A DNA stretch of 64,000 bases from Thiorhodovibrio frisius (GTDB taxonomy: Bacteria > Pseudomonadota > Gammaproteobacteria > Chromatiales > Chromatiaceae), in NCBI RefSeq assembly GCF_033954835.1, contig NZ_CP121471.1:1668501-1732500 (forward strand). Direction: 5' to 3'. The notes under the pieces are model-generated. The model saw nothing but the letters and a program-made list of their open reading frames with translations. It had not been told where the DNA came from and did no database searches. Shown here in pieces: positions 42,012 through 50,778 of this stretch. A program made the position numbers and the translations under genes. Numbering within the stretch: position 1 is the first letter of the stretch; every line of letters begins with the position of its first letter.

Positions 42012-43541
42012 TTAAAGATGACCGACCCAGACGTCCTGCATGATCACGAACAAGAAAGCCGTCGAACAGCCAAACATCAGCACCCCGGAGATAGCGATCA
42101 GTGGTCCGATATGTCGCCAGGGATATTTCAGCAGGACATCGCCGAAGCCCAGCGTCGTGATGGATGCGGCGGCAAAATAGACACCTTCGGTCAGGCTTGG
42201 CAAGAGCCGCGTTCCGCGCAAAAAAAATCCCCAGGCCGCAGATTCTGCCAGGTGGGCCGCGAACAACAGAAAGAAACAGCCAAGGATCAAAGTCTTGCCA
42301 GTATGGTGCCCAAAATGCTCCAGCATCCACGCTTTCTGTCCAATGATTGCGCCAGCCACATCGAAGATCATAACAAGGTGAAAAAAGAACAGAGCAAGCG
42401 CAAGCAGCAGCGCAAAGCCATAGATCCGGACAATCTTGCGACGGAAACCCGGGTGATGTCCTTCCACTGCGGTTTGATCTGACTTGTCTTGATGCCCGGT
42501 TTCCGCGCTGGGCCGGGGAGGGAGCGTCAATTCGACGTTTTCTGGACTCAAGGTCTTGGGCTCTTGCGCTAGTGTCTTTTTCGGGCGACTGGCCTGATCG
42601 AGCTGGCGATCGTGGATTTCCCGACGCAGCAAGACCCAAGCCAGCAGAGCAACGAGGACAGACAATCCCGTCACCGTCCAGAAGCCAAACGGATTGTGTT
42701 GATCGGGAATCCCCGCGACGTTCATTCCGAGCAGACCGGTGATGAAGGTCAAGGGCAAAAACACGGTCGCGACGATGGTCAGATTCAGGCTGGAACGCGT
42801 CATGGTCTCCGAGCGTTGTGCATCGATTTGATCCTCCAGCAGCTGCACCCGGGTGCGGCATTCATCCAACCCTTGCAAATAGCGGGTCACGTAATTTGAG
42901 GATCGGACCAAGGTTTCACGGTCATCGGCATCCAGCACCAGGGCGGGGTCGGTCGTCATCGGAGCGAGCACCTGCTGAGTGGCATTCACTTGCCGTCGGG
43001 TGCGAAAGATTCGCCGCCGCAGCTCGCTCAGCGCCTGCGGGGGAGGCGCGGTACCGCCGTCGAGCAGGGCATCCTCGACGGCATCGATGTCTTGGGTCAG
43101 ATCAAAGATGACCGCTTCCATCCGCTTGGTCATCGCCGACACCATGAAACCGAGCAAATCCACGGCCGTCACCAGAGAGCTGTCCGACCTGTGCCGTCGT
43201 AGCACCTCCACGGCGGCGATCGGGCCAGATCGCACGGTCATCGCCCGGGCCGGGCCGATCAGCAGCTTCAAATCGGCGAGTTCGCTGATATCCTCGATCT
43301 GCTCGGAACGCGGGGTTCTGATACTTACCAAGGTGCCGTCAGGCACCTGTTCATAATGGTTGAAACGCACCGGCGCCAATAACGCCTGCCTGGTCTGATC
43401 GTTAATCTCTTGCAAGCCCATCAGCCATTGGCGATCAGCGTCGTCGGCCATGTCGACGTCGAACCAGGTGGCACCAGCAGCACCAGTGGCACCGGAGTGA
43501 TGCGAGGCTTTTCCGAGCCCGAATTGGGAAATCTCAGGCAT
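42012..43541 (-). CDS. CorA/ZntB-type transporter fused to a K+-channel-like pore domain
   Basis: 509 residues in one uninterrupted frame. Residues 25-310 are a CorA/ZntB-type cation transporter: cytoplasmic alpha/beta funnel, long helix (about 215-265), two membrane helices (about 253-271 and 286-305) and the periplasmic GMN loop, here GMNVAGIP (272-279). A charged linker of about 60 residues follows. Residues 370-509 form a separate membrane domain: helices at about 374-395 and 415-437, then TEGVYFAAASITTLGFGDVL, whose TLGFGD (463-468) matches K+-channel selectivity filters, and a last helix at 477-500. The fusion is unusual and its function is unknown. Confidence 0.87.
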   Translation of the reverse strand: MPEISQFGLGKASHHSGATGAAGATWFDVDMADDADRQWLMGLQEINDQTRQALLAPVRFNHYEQVPDGTLVSIRTPRSEQIEDISELADLKLLIGPARAMTVRSGPIAAVEVLRRHRSDSSLVTAVDLLGFMVSAMTKRMEAVIFDLTQDIDAVEDALLDGGTAPPPQALSELRRRIFRTRRQVNATQQVLAPMTTDPALVLDADDRETLVRSSNYVTRYLQGLDECRTRVQLLEDQIDAQRSETMTRSSLNLTIVATVFLPLTFITGLLGMNVAGIPDQHNPFGFWTVTGLSVLVALLAWVLLRREIHDRQLDQASRPKKTLAQEPKTLSPENVELTLPPRPSAETGHQDKSDQTAVEGHHPGFRRKIVRIYGFALLLALALFFFHLVMIFDVAGAIIGQKAWMLEHFGHHTGKTLILGCFFLLFAAHLAESAAWGFFLRGTRLLPSLTEGVYFAAASITTLGFGDVLLKYPWRHIGPLIAISGVLMFGCSTAFLFVIMQDVWVGHL

Positions 43542-44275: not shown

Positions 44276-44566
44276 ATGATCGAGGTTCGCAAAACGGAGG
44301 TCTATGCCAAGTGGCTCGATGGGTTGCGTGATATCCGCGCGCGTGGCCGAGTTTTGGCGAGAGTCGAGCGCTTGGCGGCAGGTAACCAGGGCGACGCCGA
44401 GCCGGTCGGTGAGGGTGTCTCTGAGTTGCGAATCAATTATGGCCCCGGTTACCGGGTGTACTACAAACAGCAAGGACGTGAGTTAGTGATTCTTTTGGCT
44501 GGCGGCGATAAAAGTAGCCAGTCAAGAGACATCAAGACGGCTCTGGGCCTTGCCCGCAATCTGTAG
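44276..44566 (+). CDS. RelE/HigB-type toxin (addiction module killer protein)
   Basis: A 96-residue protein with RelE-like fold features: VYAKWLDGLRDIRARGRVLA, SELRINYGPGYRVYYKQQG, LVILLAGGDKSSQSRDIKTA. This matches the 'putative addiction module killer' subgroup. Such toxins usually cleave mRNA on the ribosome. The antitoxin gene starts 8 bases after the stop; toxin-first order is typical of higBA-like pairs. Confidence 0.93.
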   Translation: MIEVRKTEVYAKWLDGLRDIRARGRVLARVERLAAGNQGDAEPVGEGVSELRINYGPGYRVYYKQQGRELVILLAGGDKSSQSRDIKTALGLARNL

Positions 44567-44574
44567 GATAACCC

Positions 44575-44931
44575 ATGAAAAAGACAGTTACGTCCCGCTA
44601 CGATGTTGCTGAGCATCTCCGTACGCCTGAAGAAATGGCGGCATATCTGGAAGCCTGTTTGGAGGAGGCACAAGGTGATGCCACCTTTATAGCAAAGGCG
44701 CTTGGTGATATTGCCCGTGCGAGAGGTATGTCGCAAGTGGCCCGCGATGCTGGTGTATCACGTGAAAGTCTATACAAAGCGCTTTCTGGGGAACGAACCC
44801 CAGGGTTCGACACAATCCTGAAGGTAATAGGAGCGCTGGGCCTGAAGTTGCATGCGGAAGCGGTGAAGATGCCAAATCATATCCAACAAGCCACTGCAAC
44901 TGACGCCTTGCCACACACGGTTGAGCGATAA
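44575..44931 (+). CDS. HTH antitoxin of a HigBA-like pair
   Basis: 118 residues. The XRE-like helix-turn-helix is LGDIARARGMSQVARDAGVS, then RESLYKALSGERTPGFDTIL, the hallmark of the addiction-module antidote family. The N-terminus YDVAEHLRTPEEMAAYLEAC is also family-typical. The C-terminal 25 residues are probably disordered. It should bind its own promoter with the toxin. Confidence 0.93.
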   Translation: MKKTVTSRYDVAEHLRTPEEMAAYLEACLEEAQGDATFIAKALGDIARARGMSQVARDAGVSRESLYKALSGERTPGFDTILKVIGALGLKLHAEAVKMPNHIQQATATDALPHTVER

Positions 44932-45007: not shown

Positions 45008-48000
45008 TCAACTGCTGACCTGTGCGCCCAAATCACCGTGACTCGCTTGCTCGATCTGCACTCGCAAGGGGCTGATGGTGTCGATATGCAGGTCGCGTTG
45101 CGGGAAGGAAATACTGATGCCGGCGGCATTGAACTTGTCGTTGATGACCACGTTCAAGGCGCTGATGGTGCTGACGCGCTGATCGATGGAACCGACGAAA
45201 CAGCGCAGCAGCAGACCGAGCGAATTGTCGCCGAAGGTCTCGAAGATGACGGTCGGGGCCGGTTCATCGAGCACATTGGCATTCTCCCTGGCGGCTTCCG
45301 CCAACAGATCCATGGCCTGGCGCACAGGGGAACCGTAGGCGATGCCAATGGCCAGCACCAACCGCGTGGTCTGATCCGACAGCGACCAATTGAGCAGGCG
45401 CCCGGTAATGAACTCCTTGTTGGGTACCAACAACTCCTTGCCGTCCCAGTTGCGGATGGTGGTGGCGCGGATCTTGATTTTGGTCACCACGCCATCGGTG
45501 TCGCCCACGGTGACGGCATCGCCGACGCGGATGGGGCGCTCGAACAGGATGATCAGGCCGCTGATAAAGTTGGCGACAATCTCTTGCAGGCCGAAACCGA
45601 TACCGACGCTGAGCGCCGCCGCCAGCCATTGCACTTGCGACCAGCGCGCGCCCATCGTGCTGAGCACCAGCAACACACCCACCGCGATGATGGCGTAGGT
45701 CGTCAGCGTGGTCACCGTATAGCGACTGGCCGCCGTCATCTTGAAGCGCTGCAAGAGCACGATCTCCAGCAGGGCCGGGAGCCGATCCGCCAGCACCCAG
45801 GTGCCGATGGCATAGAGCAACGCCAGGCCAAGGCTCGCGAGCGTGATCGGATGGGATTGCTCAGTACCATCAACCATGACAGTCCCATGCCACAGAACCA
45901 CATCGTCGAAGATGCGCAGCGCCGGCAGGGCGCTGAACCAGATCAGGTAGAGTCCTCCGAGCGCCGTGGCGAAGATGAGGATGCGGATCAGGCCGTGCGT
46001 CTCGTCGCTCAGAGCGGTGATATCGACATCCGGTTCCTCAAATTGCAGATCCCCGACATCGCCCTCGTCCTCTTCTTCCGCTTCGGCTTGCTCCGCGCGG
46101 CGGCGCTCCATGGCGGCATCGTAGGCCAGGCGCCGTCGGGTCACCTGCAACCAACGCTGCGCGAGGGCGTTGCTCAGCGCCAGCGCCAGCAGGAACCAGA
46201 GCGTCAATAAAAACAGATGAGAATAGGCCGTGGCGGTGTAGACATAGCCGGTCCAGGAGAGAGCAAGCAATACCAGGGGATAACCAACTGCCAGCGGGTA
46301 CCATATCAAGTAGGTGCGGGTGACCGTTGGGTAAGCGCCGCTTGAGCGCAGGTGAGCGAGCACGCCGCGCTGGGGGTGGAGCACCCGGTACAGGAACAGC
46401 GACAGCGGAACATAGCCCAACAGCAGGCCTAGCTTGGCCAGGGTGCCGCCGGAGTCGGTCGGATTGAGATCAATCGCGAGCTTGACGATCAAGGCCGAGA
46501 TCGCGAGCGGCCAGATGACCAGCTTGAGCTGGGTTCGCAACAGCTTCAAATTGCGCTCTGGCCAGCGGAAATGCGCTGCCGCCAAGCCATGAGGTAGGCA
46601 GATGGCGCGCAGGCTGAGCAGAATGGCCAGATGCAGGGCGACCCAGATCAGGGATGTACCAAGGGCATGGGACAGTGCGGTTCCGCCACCCGCGCTCTGG
46701 AGCTGCCAGCCCACCATTCCCACCAGTGAGGGCAGCGGTGCCGCGAGGAGCAGGGTCAAGGCCAACACACGCCAGGTATGACCCATGCAGTCGGTCGTGG
46801 GTTTGCCGAGTCGGGGGGCGACCGAGTTAATGGTGGCGATGGTGCCCCGGCGTCGCCACAGCAAGACCACAGCGCCGACCAGGACGAACCAGAAGGCGGG
46901 ACTGAGCGCGAGTTCCTGACCGATCAGGCGCGGCAAGCCGGGGAGGTCTGCGCTGACAAACTGGGCGCGGAGCTGGCTCGGCAGCGCGCGGATGTCCTCT
47001 AGGCTGATGGGTTTAGCGTTGCGCAACCAGGGCAAGTTTTCACCCAGAAAGGCGTCGTACTCAGCGGCGGTCGCGAGCAACGCCTGCTCCGCTCGATCAA
47101 GCTCCCGCAGCTTGCCGAGGTAGAGCCGATTCGTTTCCAAGGCTTGGTCGAGCTGCGCCTGACGTTGTTGCACCAGCTCTTGCAGTTTCGCAATTTGCGC
47201 GGCGAGTTCCTGGTCCGTCCTGGGCGTCGTCGAGTCATCGGCTTGGAGCGGCTGCGCGAGTCGTTCAACTGTCGCATCCGTGTCCGCGATGCGCCGCGCC
47301 TCCGAGCGATACTCTAACCGGCGCACGTTGAGGTTCGCGATCTCGTCCTGGCGCTGATCGGCCTTTTCAGCGAAGGCGCGCGGATCGGGCAGGGTATCGA
47401 GCTGGCGCAACAGGATACGGCCAAGATCGTCGTTGACCTCCCCGGACTCCAGGGTTTCCTGGGCATCTTGGTAATCGGCGCCGAGCTGTTCCAGGCGCTG
47501 CTCGAGTGCTTGTCGTGCTTCATCTTGCGCTTTGACCTGCTCGATCATTGTGCTGACATCGCGCGACAGGGCGGCGTTTTGTTCAGACAGCTCGACCAAC
47601 ACCGGGTGCATTCCCTTAAGCTCGCGCCGCGTCTGCTCGGCTTTTGCCGTCGCTTGCTCCGCTGCCTGACGACGTTTGAGGTCAATCAGCTCCTCGAGCA
47701 TCCCGACGCGCTCGCCGATCTGTTCGGCGCTGGCCTCATCTCTGGCGAGCTTGGCTTCCAGCAGTTGTGTTCGCAGCGGCTGGCTCGAAAGCTCCTGGTT
47801 GAGCATGGTGATCTCGGTGCTCAGCGCCACCTGGCGCGTCGCCAGCTCCCACTGTTGCGCCTCCACCAACACCGCACCCGCATCATCCTCGTCGAGTGCC
47901 TGGCGCTGCGCCGCTGCCTCCTCGCGTTCTTGCGTTGCATCCGCAAGGCGCTGGCCGATGACATCCGGGCGCGCCTCGAGTATCGCCAGCCGGGACTCGG

Positions 48001-48463
48001 CATCTGCCCGTCGCGCATCGACCGTGTTCAGGTTCGCCTGCTCCTTCTGCAAGAGTTGTTCAAGCGCGGGCAGCGGGGTGTTTTCATCCGCCTCCAGGCC
48101 CTCGAGTGGCACGGATTTCGGCTCGGTCTGCGGCTCGGTCTCTGCCGGGGGCGCCAGCGCTGCTTGGATGGCCTGAATCTCGGCCGGCGCACGCTCGGCG
48201 ATCTGTTCGAACTTGGCGGCCGCTGCCTCATTGTCCTGTGCTGTGCGCAGATGGCTCAGTGCTTTGCGGTAAAGCTCGATCAGCCGGCTCTTGGCCTCCT
48301 CGGGCATGTCGGTCGCGGCCTCGACCTCTGCGATCTTCGACTCCAGTGCCTCCGCGGTGACAGGCGATGCCGCCAGCGCGCTCTCGGTCTCCTGAGCGCC
48401 AACCAACGAAAGCGAGGCCATCCAAAGGAGGGTAGCGGTGAGAAGAAAGGGAAGTGTTCGCAT
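45008..48463 (-). CDS. mscK: MscK/KefA-type mechanosensitive channel
   Basis: About 1151 residues. A signal peptide (MRTLPFLLTATLLWMASLSL, cut near VGAQ) is followed by a long Gln/Glu/Ala-rich periplasmic coiled coil (to about residue 500). Roughly ten membrane helices follow, and then the MscS core: pore helix and neck ALSVGIGFGLQEIVANFISG, beta domain PIRVGDAVTVGDTDGVVTKI and ELLVPNKEFITGRLLNWSLS. An acidic cytoplasmic loop (AEAEEEDEGDVGDLQFEEPD) separates helix groups. It releases solutes on osmotic downshock; E. coli MscK also needs external K+. I use ATG 48463 because it gives a clean signal peptide. Confidence 0.9.
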   Translation of the reverse strand: MRTLPFLLTATLLWMASLSLVGAQETESALAASPVTAEALESKIAEVEAATDMPEEAKSRLIELYRKALSHLRTAQDNEAAAAKFEQIAERAPAEIQAIQAALAPPAETEPQTEPKSVPLEGLEADENTPLPALEQLLQKEQANLNTVDARRADAESRLAILEARPDVIGQRLADATQEREEAAAQRQALDEDDAGAVLVEAQQWELATRQVALSTEITMLNQELSSQPLRTQLLEAKLARDEASAEQIGERVGMLEELIDLKRRQAAEQATAKAEQTRRELKGMHPVLVELSEQNAALSRDVSTMIEQVKAQDEARQALEQRLEQLGADYQDAQETLESGEVNDDLGRILLRQLDTLPDPRAFAEKADQRQDEIANLNVRRLEYRSEARRIADTDATVERLAQPLQADDSTTPRTDQELAAQIAKLQELVQQRQAQLDQALETNRLYLGKLRELDRAEQALLATAAEYDAFLGENLPWLRNAKPISLEDIRALPSQLRAQFVSADLPGLPRLIGQELALSPAFWFVLVGAVVLLWRRRGTIATINSVAPRLGKPTTDCMGHTWRVLALTLLLAAPLPSLVGMVGWQLQSAGGGTALSHALGTSLIWVALHLAILLSLRAICLPHGLAAAHFRWPERNLKLLRTQLKLVIWPLAISALIVKLAIDLNPTDSGGTLAKLGLLLGYVPLSLFLYRVLHPQRGVLAHLRSSGAYPTVTRTYLIWYPLAVGYPLVLLALSWTGYVYTATAYSHLFLLTLWFLLALALSNALAQRWLQVTRRRLAYDAAMERRRAEQAEAEEEDEGDVGDLQFEEPDVDITALSDETHGLIRILIFATALGGLYLIWFSALPALRIFDDVVLWHGTVMVDGTEQSHPITLASLGLALLYAIGTWVLADRLPALLEIVLLQRFKMTAASRYTVTTLTTYAIIAVGVLLVLSTMGARWSQVQWLAAALSVGIGFGLQEIVANFISGLIILFERPIRVGDAVTVGDTDGVVTKIKIRATTIRNWDGKELLVPNKEFITGRLLNWSLSDQTTRLVLAIGIAYGSPVRQAMDLLAEAARENANVLDEPAPTVIFETFGDNSLGLLLRCFVGSIDQRVSTISALNVVINDKFNAAGISISFPQRDLHIDTISPLRVQIEQASHGDLGAQVSS

Positions 48464-48610
48464 GGTCAGCCGTCTGACAGCAGGGCTTCTTTTACCCGAA
48501 TAGGCGAAGCGGATTTCGACATGGCGTTGCTCTGTTCTTTGGATGCGTGATTGGGATGCGTGATTGGCCAGGAGCGTAGCAGTGCGCTGTGGCGGGCTCA
48601 AGGGTCTCGC

Positions 48611-50665
48611 TCACGATTTTTCGCCCAAAGCCGAGAGGGTCCCAATATCATCCGACTCCTTCCCACTATCATTACGCAGATAGAGCGTCTCACTCGGGAA
48701 CGCAATGCTCAGCCCATTGGCCTCGACGATGGCGCAACAACGAAAGATCACGTCCTGCTTGACCTGGAGCCAGCCTTCCCAGTCGACGGTCTTGGAGAAG
48801 CAGTAGATCAGGATGTCAATTGAACTGTCGCCGAGGGCATCGAGATAGACCAGCAGCGTTCGCTTGATGCCGTAACCATCCATGGCGTCCGCGATCTTGG
48901 CGAGTTGTTGTTTGGTATAGCTGGAGGTGTCGGTGCTGCTATCGGCGATGTCTTTATGGGCAATCAGCATGGCGCGAATGTCATCGACTGTCTTCTTCAC
49001 CTGCTGCATATCACTGCCGTATTCGAGCCCGAGCGTAAACTTGATGCGCCGTCCCAGTTTGCGCCGATTCCAGTTGCGCACGTCGATGCTGGCCACATAA
49101 GCGTTGGGCAAAAAGATCACTGCATTGTCGAAGGTGCGGATCTTGGTGCTACGCAGACCAACATCGATCACCGTGCCCTCACCGTTTGGCGTCACGATCC
49201 AATCGCCTTGCTGGAACATGTCGTCGGCAATGATGGAAATGCAGCCGAAGATGTTCGCAATGGTCTCCTTGGCCGCGAAGGCGACAGCCAGACCGCCGAT
49301 GCCGAGCGAGGCCAGCAGGGCGCGGATGTCGAAGCCGAAGTGCTGCAGCAGGTAGAGCAGGGCGAATACGATCACCAGGAAGCGGGTCATGCTGGACAAA
49401 AAGTTGACCAACTCGCCGCGCAGGGTCGGATAGCGGCGAAGCAACTCGCTCGAATACAGCATCACGAAGTTGTCGATCAGGCGCAGTAGCGCCCACACGA
49501 CCAGCACGACATACAGGCTGTCGATCACGCTCATGATGCGCTCGCCGGATACGCGCAAGAACAGAATGCGCGTCGCCTGCGCAATGGCGATCAGCACCAG
49601 CAGGATGCGCAGCGGACCGAGAAACGACTGCTCAAGTAGGCGCAGAAAGCGCTCGGATTCGGTCGGAGCCTGCTGCGCGCTCTGCGCCTGTTGCGGCGCT
49701 GCCCGTCGCGGCCATACCCGCCGCAAAAGTCGCAGCAGCATCGGCAACAGAATCAGACCGACGCCGGTCAACGCCAGAAACAACGCAGCAGCAGCGACAA
49801 TCTGGCCAAGGCTAATGAGTTGGCCAATGTTGTTGTCGGTGCCCGGCAGGATGCTGGCGTTGAGGTCGATGGCCCAAGGCTGCGCATCGATGGTGCCGAT
49901 TAGCGTGCTGATGCCGAGCCAATGCAACAACTGGTTGCTGGTTGCCGCGTCCTTGACGAAACCGAACAGCGACTGCGCCACGGCGTCATAGACCTCGGCG
50001 CGCTGGCTGTAGTCATGATAGGCGCTGATGAGTGTTTGCTCAGCGTTACTGGGCGTGCTCGCCTTGCCGGCTTCCAAACGCTGCACGGCGCGCCCGAACG
50101 GGACCTGATTGAAAGCGGTGCGATGCTCAAAGCTGTTGAACGCACCATCAAAGTTTGCGGCTGGGGCGAATCTGATCCAGTCGCGCGCCACCGTCGTCAA
50201 TAGATCCGTGAAGCTCTGATCCAGGATCGCGCTGTTGAGGCGCAGAATTGCGATCATCTCGGCGGTCTTGTCCCCGCTGCGCCGAGCACTTGAGACGGCA
50301 TCGCGCAGACGCAGCAGTTCGTCCGCCGGGAGCCTTGGTGCAAAACCGCGACCGCCTTGGGACAGGATGGCCCGGTTGAGTTGCTCCAACACCCGGGCGC
50401 GCTGATGCGTCAGCCGGGCCATGTCGGCGCTATCGGTGGTGGTGCTGATACGCTGGTCGAGGTTGGCAACCGCGAGCAGGAGCGGCTGTTTGAAGGGCGT
50501 TGTGTCGCCGAGGTTCTCTGCGCGCATCACCGGCGCATCCGCTGCCGGCAAGCTCACTGGGAACAGCAGCAGCCCGAGCAGCAGGGCTGGAATCACAGCT
50601 GGAATCGCAGCTTGCATTGCAGTTGGGGTCACACTGGAACCTATGCCGTTTCTCGATTCATTCAT
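48611..50665 (-). CDS. MscS-superfamily mechanosensitive channel, long form
   Basis: About 684 residues from the ATG at 50665 (GGTG upstream). A signal peptide (VIPALLLGLLLFPVSLPAAD) precedes a helical periplasmic domain (about 30-260), five membrane segments and the MscS core. Core motifs: LASLGIGGLAVAFAAKETIA, DDMFQQGDWIVTPNGEGTVI, VIFLPNAYVASIDVRNWNRR. The C-terminus forms the usual cytoplasmic alpha/beta cage. It is tandem with the MscK-like gene, so the cell has at least two large osmotic valves in one locus. Confidence 0.92.
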   Translation of the reverse strand: MNESRNGIGSSVTPTAMQAAIPAVIPALLLGLLLFPVSLPAADAPVMRAENLGDTTPFKQPLLLAVANLDQRISTTTDSADMARLTHQRARVLEQLNRAILSQGGRGFAPRLPADELLRLRDAVSSARRSGDKTAEMIAILRLNSAILDQSFTDLLTTVARDWIRFAPAANFDGAFNSFEHRTAFNQVPFGRAVQRLEAGKASTPSNAEQTLISAYHDYSQRAEVYDAVAQSLFGFVKDAATSNQLLHWLGISTLIGTIDAQPWAIDLNASILPGTDNNIGQLISLGQIVAAAALFLALTGVGLILLPMLLRLLRRVWPRRAAPQQAQSAQQAPTESERFLRLLEQSFLGPLRILLVLIAIAQATRILFLRVSGERIMSVIDSLYVVLVVWALLRLIDNFVMLYSSELLRRYPTLRGELVNFLSSMTRFLVIVFALLYLLQHFGFDIRALLASLGIGGLAVAFAAKETIANIFGCISIIADDMFQQGDWIVTPNGEGTVIDVGLRSTKIRTFDNAVIFLPNAYVASIDVRNWNRRKLGRRIKFTLGLEYGSDMQQVKKTVDDIRAMLIAHKDIADSSTDTSSYTKQQLAKIADAMDGYGIKRTLLVYLDALGDSSIDILIYCFSKTVDWEGWLQVKQDVIFRCCAIVEANGLSIAFPSETLYLRNDSGKESDDIGTLSALGEKS

Positions 50666-50778
50666 CAGTTTCACCGCGAGATACCCCCATCCTTCAGTGC
50701 GGGGAGGGATAGCGGGTGTTCACAGTGCCGCCAAAGAAAATAAGTGCAGGCTTTCCACCGGCTGGGCCGTGAGACTCT

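Follow-up and report, generated by a model that had tools for sequence, protein, structure and literature searches.

In Thiorhodovibrio frisius, a single uninterrupted gene joins a CorA/ZntB-type transporter domain to a K+-channel-type pore, and the pore is predicted to sit in the membrane the other way up from that of ordinary K+ channels. The analysis confirms the fusion, and its strongest new point is that the pore is predicted to be inverted. An inverted pore would be unusual, and it would provide a clear natural example of a K+-channel-type pore that has turned over, one that can be compared with unturned relatives from its own bacterial family. The fusion also poses the question of how five-fold and four-fold assemblies share one chain.

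One reading frame encodes a CorA-type domain and a K+-type pore

The gene lies within a 64,000-nucleotide stretch of the T. frisius genome, here called the window, and is read on the minus strand from position 43541 to 42012 as one frame of 509 codons; the plus-strand translation contains internal stops. An earlier note on the window had described an uninterrupted gene of this length at these coordinates, with a CorA/ZntB domain and a separate K+-type pore in one chain and a linker of about 60 residues between them. Each of these points is borne out, the coding strand being the minus strand: both Pfam families score above their curated cut-offs, and the GMNVAGIP and TLGFGDV motifs lie at the residues that the note had assigned to them (Table 1). 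The search for full-length homologues that it had proposed returned such proteins, each in a single frame, from five further genomes, at identities of 98% (G028), 88% (Rhabdochromatium marinum, G004), 70% (G023), 66% (G101) and 65% (G070). Two findings were to count against the fusion, a break in the frame between residues 305 and 370 and homologues that always occur as two genes; this region is free of frame breaks in all six fused genes, and fused homologues exist alongside separate ones. A missed stop or sequencing artefact is ruled out, as the frame is kept in six species with no internal stop.

Table 1. Features of the fused gene and its neighbours, in window coordinates.
Feature	Coordinates	Strand	Basis
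CorA/ZntB-type domain, linker and K+-channel-type pore in one gene, 509 aa	42012..43541	-	single open frame; whole-protein homologues in 5 other genomes
CorA-like (2-TM-GxN) domain, residues 23-307	42621..43475	-	PF01544; closest structures; hydropathy
GMNVAGIP, residues 272-279	42705..42728	-	sequence; GMN in 6/6 fused proteins
Polar linker, residues ~310-368	42438..42614	-	fast-evolving, variable length
Pore module (TM0, TM1, P-loop, TM2), residues 369-509	42015..42437	-	PF07885; hydropathy
Extra helix TM0, residues ~372-397 (limits by eye), preceded by FRRKIVR	42351..42428	-	hydropathy
Selectivity-filter motif TLGFGDV, residues 463-469	42135..42155	-	sequence, alignment
MscK/KefA-type mechanosensitive channel, upstream neighbour	45008..48601	-	MscS_porin, MscS_TM and MS_channel domains
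Second MscS-family channel, neighbour	48611..50674	-	domain scan

The N-terminal half matches the CorA family (PF01544) over residues 23–307 with an E-value of 2.1e-48 and 165.6 bits against a cut-off of 27. Its two hydrophobic peaks are centred at residues 263 and 296, and GMN (residues 272–274) sits between them, which is the GxN arrangement of 2-TM-GxN transporters. The nearest NCBIfam models fall well below their equivalog cut-offs (ZntB, NF007092, 126.3 bits against 292; CorA, TIGR00383, 77.2 bits against 200.75), marking the domain as CorA-like rather than as a close ZntB or CorA. By sequence, the closest solved 2-TM-GxN relatives are CmaX of Pseudomonas aeruginosa (7nh9, E 2e-23, residues 83–307) and ZntB (5n9y, E 5.7e-20, residues 21–301); unlike the T. 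frisius protein, neither has a pore domain, and the motif reads GIN in CmaX and GVN in ZntB. At E 1e-3 the fusion is the sole CorA-family match in the T. frisius genome, which also holds two MgtE matches and five Ion_trans_2 matches, the fusion included.

In the C-terminal half, Ion_trans_2 (PF07885) matches residues 445–501 with an E-value of 4.2e-7 and 30.2 bits against a cut-off of 22.5, and the same family was found in all 17 rows of an alignment of the pore subfamily, which comprises the six fused pores and eleven close standalone ones. Together with this match, the filter TLGFGD, of the TxGYG/TxGFG form, identifies the module as a K+-channel-type pore. Hydropathy shows three peaks in this half, at residues 384, 427 and 491; the P-loop falls between the second and the third. 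The first peak, an extra helix denoted TM0, is the highest of the whole protein (mean 2.59 over 19 residues).

The pore is predicted to face the cytoplasm

The GxN loop is periplasmic in the CorA family. For ZntB, one report describes a cytoplasmic N-terminal domain followed by two membrane helices, with the GxN motif in the sole periplasmic loop (PMC5670123), and the CorA-type domain of the fusion should therefore end in the cytoplasm. A pore that starts there and crosses the membrane three times would have a P-loop entering from the cytoplasm, the reverse of K+ channels: TM0 would run outward, TM1 would lead back in, the P-loop would re-enter from the cytoplasmic side and TM2 would end in the periplasm. 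Because TM1 contains the conserved His430 and Glu433, it is less certain to cross the membrane than TM0 is. The earlier note had mentioned neither the extra helix nor an upside-down pore.

We examined this orientation through the distribution of positive charge, taking as charge bias the Lys and Arg count on the side that holds the N-terminus and P-loop, less the count on the opposite side (TM0–TM1 loop and C-terminus); the window sequence served to set the segment limits. The bias is +4 to +6 in all six fused pores and 0 to +6 in the eleven close standalone pores, two of which are at 0. A first set of broader three-helix relatives, restricted to the 21 rows with E below 1e-10, ranges from -3 to -7 throughout. 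A second sample was taken from other families in the class and gives -1 to -6 in 22 of 22 counted loci, among them a 96-residue piece without TM0 (L120) and an atypical longer protein (L128); 23 loci were given, L118 was dropped as its filter pattern was unmatched, and the window itself (L115) and L108, the same place as L111, were excluded. Overall, the bias is thus 0 to +6 in 17 of 17 subfamily pores, and all 43 broader relatives fall between -1 and -7. Mann-Whitney values on these data assume independence among related sequences, and no probabilities are drawn from them. Starts of the pore relatives were placed by a distance rule, a ribosome-site-like triplet lying upstream in 16 of 21 broad and 10 of 11 close relatives, and the N-terminal flank entering the count depends on the start codon chosen; with this flank omitted, the bias is +1 to +3 for the fused pores, -3 to +1 for the close standalone pores and -3 to -7 for the first broader set. 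The shift stays, and the close standalone set is then not clearly positive; given also the two members at 0 in the full count, not all of this set are clearly N-in. By these charges, the broader family looks canonical, with N-terminus and P-loop outside, and the subfamily looks turned over.

The alternative that fares best is a fusion in which the pore keeps its normal orientation, TM0 being re-entrant or interfacial instead of crossing, so that an ordinary outward-facing pore is tethered to CorA. The P-loop region does match ordinary K+ channels, and all 43 of the broader relatives are canonical-looking by charge; set against this, TM0 is the top hydropathy peak of the protein and aligns with the TM0 of the broader family, which must cross for those relatives to be canonical, and the charge bias has switched sign. 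We regard the normal orientation as unlikely. The reading that we prefer, and to which we give somewhat more than even credence, is a CorA/ZntB-type divalent-cation transporter or channel, expected to be a pentamer, with an inverted, GluR0-like three-helix pore tethered at its cytoplasmic end. Whether the whole Chromatiaceae pore subfamily flipped in evolution to a cytoplasm-facing filter, leaving its trace in the reversed Lys/Arg bias, and was then locked in that state by fusion to the cytoplasmic end of the CorA-type pentamer, giving two ion pathways of different symmetry, we judge to be evenly poised.

The filter is altered in one draft sequence and the linker evolves fastest

The filter TLG(F/Y)GDV is intact in five of the six fused genes. 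In R. marinum (L002:4001-5521), as given by one draft assembly to which both loci showing the change belong, it reads MLGCDGV with the frame kept. The four changes (T463M, F466C, G467D, D468G) fall within six residues, three of them at positions that do not vary among the other five fused pores; outside the filter, R. marinum alters two (L380F and T494A) of the 71 such invariant positions (74 in all). Either conduction has been lost in this lineage or the draft sequence is wrong, and a filter lost from an otherwise conserved pore would mean that conduction may be dispensable.

Selection was compared between the parts of the protein in six pairwise comparisons, in which dN/dS is 0.07–0.32 for the CorA half, 0.18–0.43 for the pore half and 0.20–1.02 for the linker, the fastest-evolving part. 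Both halves are under purifying selection. Between lineages, linker length also differs by about 13 residues with the frame retained, as would suit two functional domains held together by a loose tether. These data bear on a further alternative, that the pore half no longer conducts and instead anchors the CorA half in the membrane or partners it in assembly. The R. marinum gene, with its four filter changes but its frame and most of its pore kept, speaks for such a module. Against it, TLGFGD or TLGYGD, both K+-type filters, persists in the other five fused genes, purifying selection acts on the pore, and R. marinum is one draft assembly seen twice; we consider a non-conducting pore quite improbable. 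The inverted pore of our preferred reading would presumably conduct ions.

The earlier note had further proposed that Mg2+ or Zn2+ status could be coupled to K+ conductance. This idea finds no support, since a fast-evolving, length-variable linker argues against tight or rigid coupling; in R. marinum, moreover, the filter is gone, yet the gene is still open. The tether would instead set 1:1 expression, location and orientation for both ion pathways, with strict allosteric coupling between them less likely. The least probable alternative, which we rate as very doubtful, has the chain separated after synthesis or by internal initiation, so that the CorA pentamer and the pore are free of each other and no symmetry mismatch arises: the linker is polar and fast-evolving, as this would allow, but no start codon position in it is common to the six genes, no ATG, GTG or TTG occurs between residues 335 and 383 in R. 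marinum, and, with ribosome sites judged by eye, internal initiation was rejected apart from G023, where it could still begin at an ATG at residue 371 that directly precedes TM0.

Within the pore subfamily, the first filter position is Ala or Gly, not Thr, in nine of the eleven close standalone pores (in the context TALGYGD or TGLGYGD), and Thr is kept there in the fused pores except that of R. marinum.

In the genomes searched, the fusion occurs in one family

The whole fused protein occurs in one open frame in six of 210 genomes of the order, all from one family and spanning four genera. A scan of genome contigs gave four loci, one of which is the fusion in R. marinum. Only T. frisius itself carried the fusion in a class sample of 369 genomes, where up to four candidates were scored in each, and in a phylum sample of 398, where up to three were, and misses are possible in both; 132 plasmid records match, none with a place covering 80% of the query. 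A widespread fusion was rejected on these class, phylum and plasmid samples, and the patterns used found no viral relative of the pore.

The two halves also occur separately. Among 194 family genomes, CorA-only genes at 58–62% identity are present in G132, G152, G177 and G141, and in truncated form in G167, and pore-only genes at 51–56% identity are found in eleven genomes. The pore subfamily is set apart by its scores, with 16 matches at 233–248 bits and the next at 77 among 185 genomes, and splits from other relatives in the tree with 100/100 support. Among the 369 class genomes, a match of subfamily strength was seen only in T. frisius, the other three reaching 60–78 bits.

In both half-trees the six fused rows form one group and the fused state needs one change, which makes a single fusion event the simplest reading. 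Support for the group is 96/46 in the pore tree, where the SH-aLRT value of 46 is weak, and 93/99 in the CorA tree, which was built from 31 chosen loci and the window sequence. In G035, a broken CorA fragment adjoins a standalone pore and runs in the opposite direction (L048:7708-8497); this pore branches beside the fused group in the pore tree, and the pair is perhaps a broken fusion.

Symmetry and comparison with known systems

CorA-type cores are pentamers and K+-type pores are tetramers. From this family knowledge, a pentamer/tetramer mismatch, on which the earlier note had remarked, would be expected within one chain. With a loose linker of about 60 residues, tetramers could form from the pore modules of a single pentamer or of several, an arrangement that would either leave one pore module over or link pentamers together.

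The first step proposed for glutamate-receptor evolution is that an inverted K+ pore became joined to another domain. If the T. frisius pore is inverted, that step would become testable outside the glutamate-receptor lineage. In GluR0 and ionotropic glutamate receptors, according to a published account, a K+-type pore is thought to be inverted and is joined to another domain (PMC6385376). The partner domain of GluR0 is periplasmic, whereas that of the T. frisius pore is cytoplasmic, and the T. frisius protein has the extra helix TM0 and no ligand-binding domain: a substrate-binding-protein-like domain of the GluR0 type is absent, only CorA and Ion_trans_2 reaching Pfam cut-offs.

The three-helix bacterial K+-channel-like proteins (PF07885, ~150 aa) have the same TM0-TM1-P-TM2 order and a filter of the LGYGD type and can be aligned over their length. 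The T. frisius subfamily differs from them in its reversed Lys/Arg bias, in an N-terminus that is longer and positive, in a nearly uncharged C-terminus and in the CorA fusion of six genomes. In MthK-type channels, a pore is covalently joined to a cytoplasmic ion-sensing domain. Compared with MthK, the domain order here is reversed, there is no RCK among the Pfam matches and no common internal start. In the open-licence literature searched we found neither a paper describing a CorA-pore fusion nor an inverted three-helix K+ pore; the available portion of one article has no mention of inverted K+ channels (PMC3962082), and that of a SHOCT paper mentions both Pfam families, in separate proteins (PMC3581485).

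Mechanosensitive-channel genes neighbour the fusion

The two mechanosensitive-channel genes beside the fusion (Table 1) have counterparts in related genomes. Homologues of the second MscS-family channel (76–82% identity) lie near the fusion in G028, R. marinum, G023 and G101, where the MscS-type homologues are on the strand of the fusion; none was found within the stretch examined around the G070 fusion. An MscK-type homologue (70–72% identity) adjoins a standalone pore gene in G023 and G152, the pore lying ~120 bases downstream of it in G152 and at a similar distance in G023. The other standalone pores examined are not beside MscS genes: that of L055 adjoins a LysM protein gene, that of L057 a gene resembling it, and the remaining neighbours, read from translations, are chromate-transporter-like or unrelated genes. 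A CorA-only gene seen in L003/L058 (one contig) adjoins another MscS-type gene.

The MscK and MscS neighbours suggest osmotic or envelope ion balance as the function, and we infer that the fusion may act under stress; the neighbourhood may partly reflect shared ancestry. A similar juxtaposition is described for P. aeruginosa, where a CorA-like gene, cmaX, and an MscS-type gene, cmpX, form a putative operon (PMC7641640). E. coli MscK is described as requiring high K+ to be activated (PMC1890815).

Several further features of these neighbourhoods were observed. In both L055 (3404-6768) and L057 (1066-4613), a large gene upstream of the standalone pore gene ends in a one-base overlap with it, which suggests coupled translation. 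In the window, a toxin-antitoxin-like pair (Gp49-like protein and HI1420-type antidote; 44276-44931, plus strand) lies between the MscK-type gene and a lipoprotein-like gene, with no match to the pair in the examined G028 stretch or at any other locus searched. Upstream of the G070 fusion there is a PqiB-like gene with an MlaD domain (L044:7858-9597), and look-alikes of this gene, read from translations, lie near the CorA-only genes in L046 and L003.
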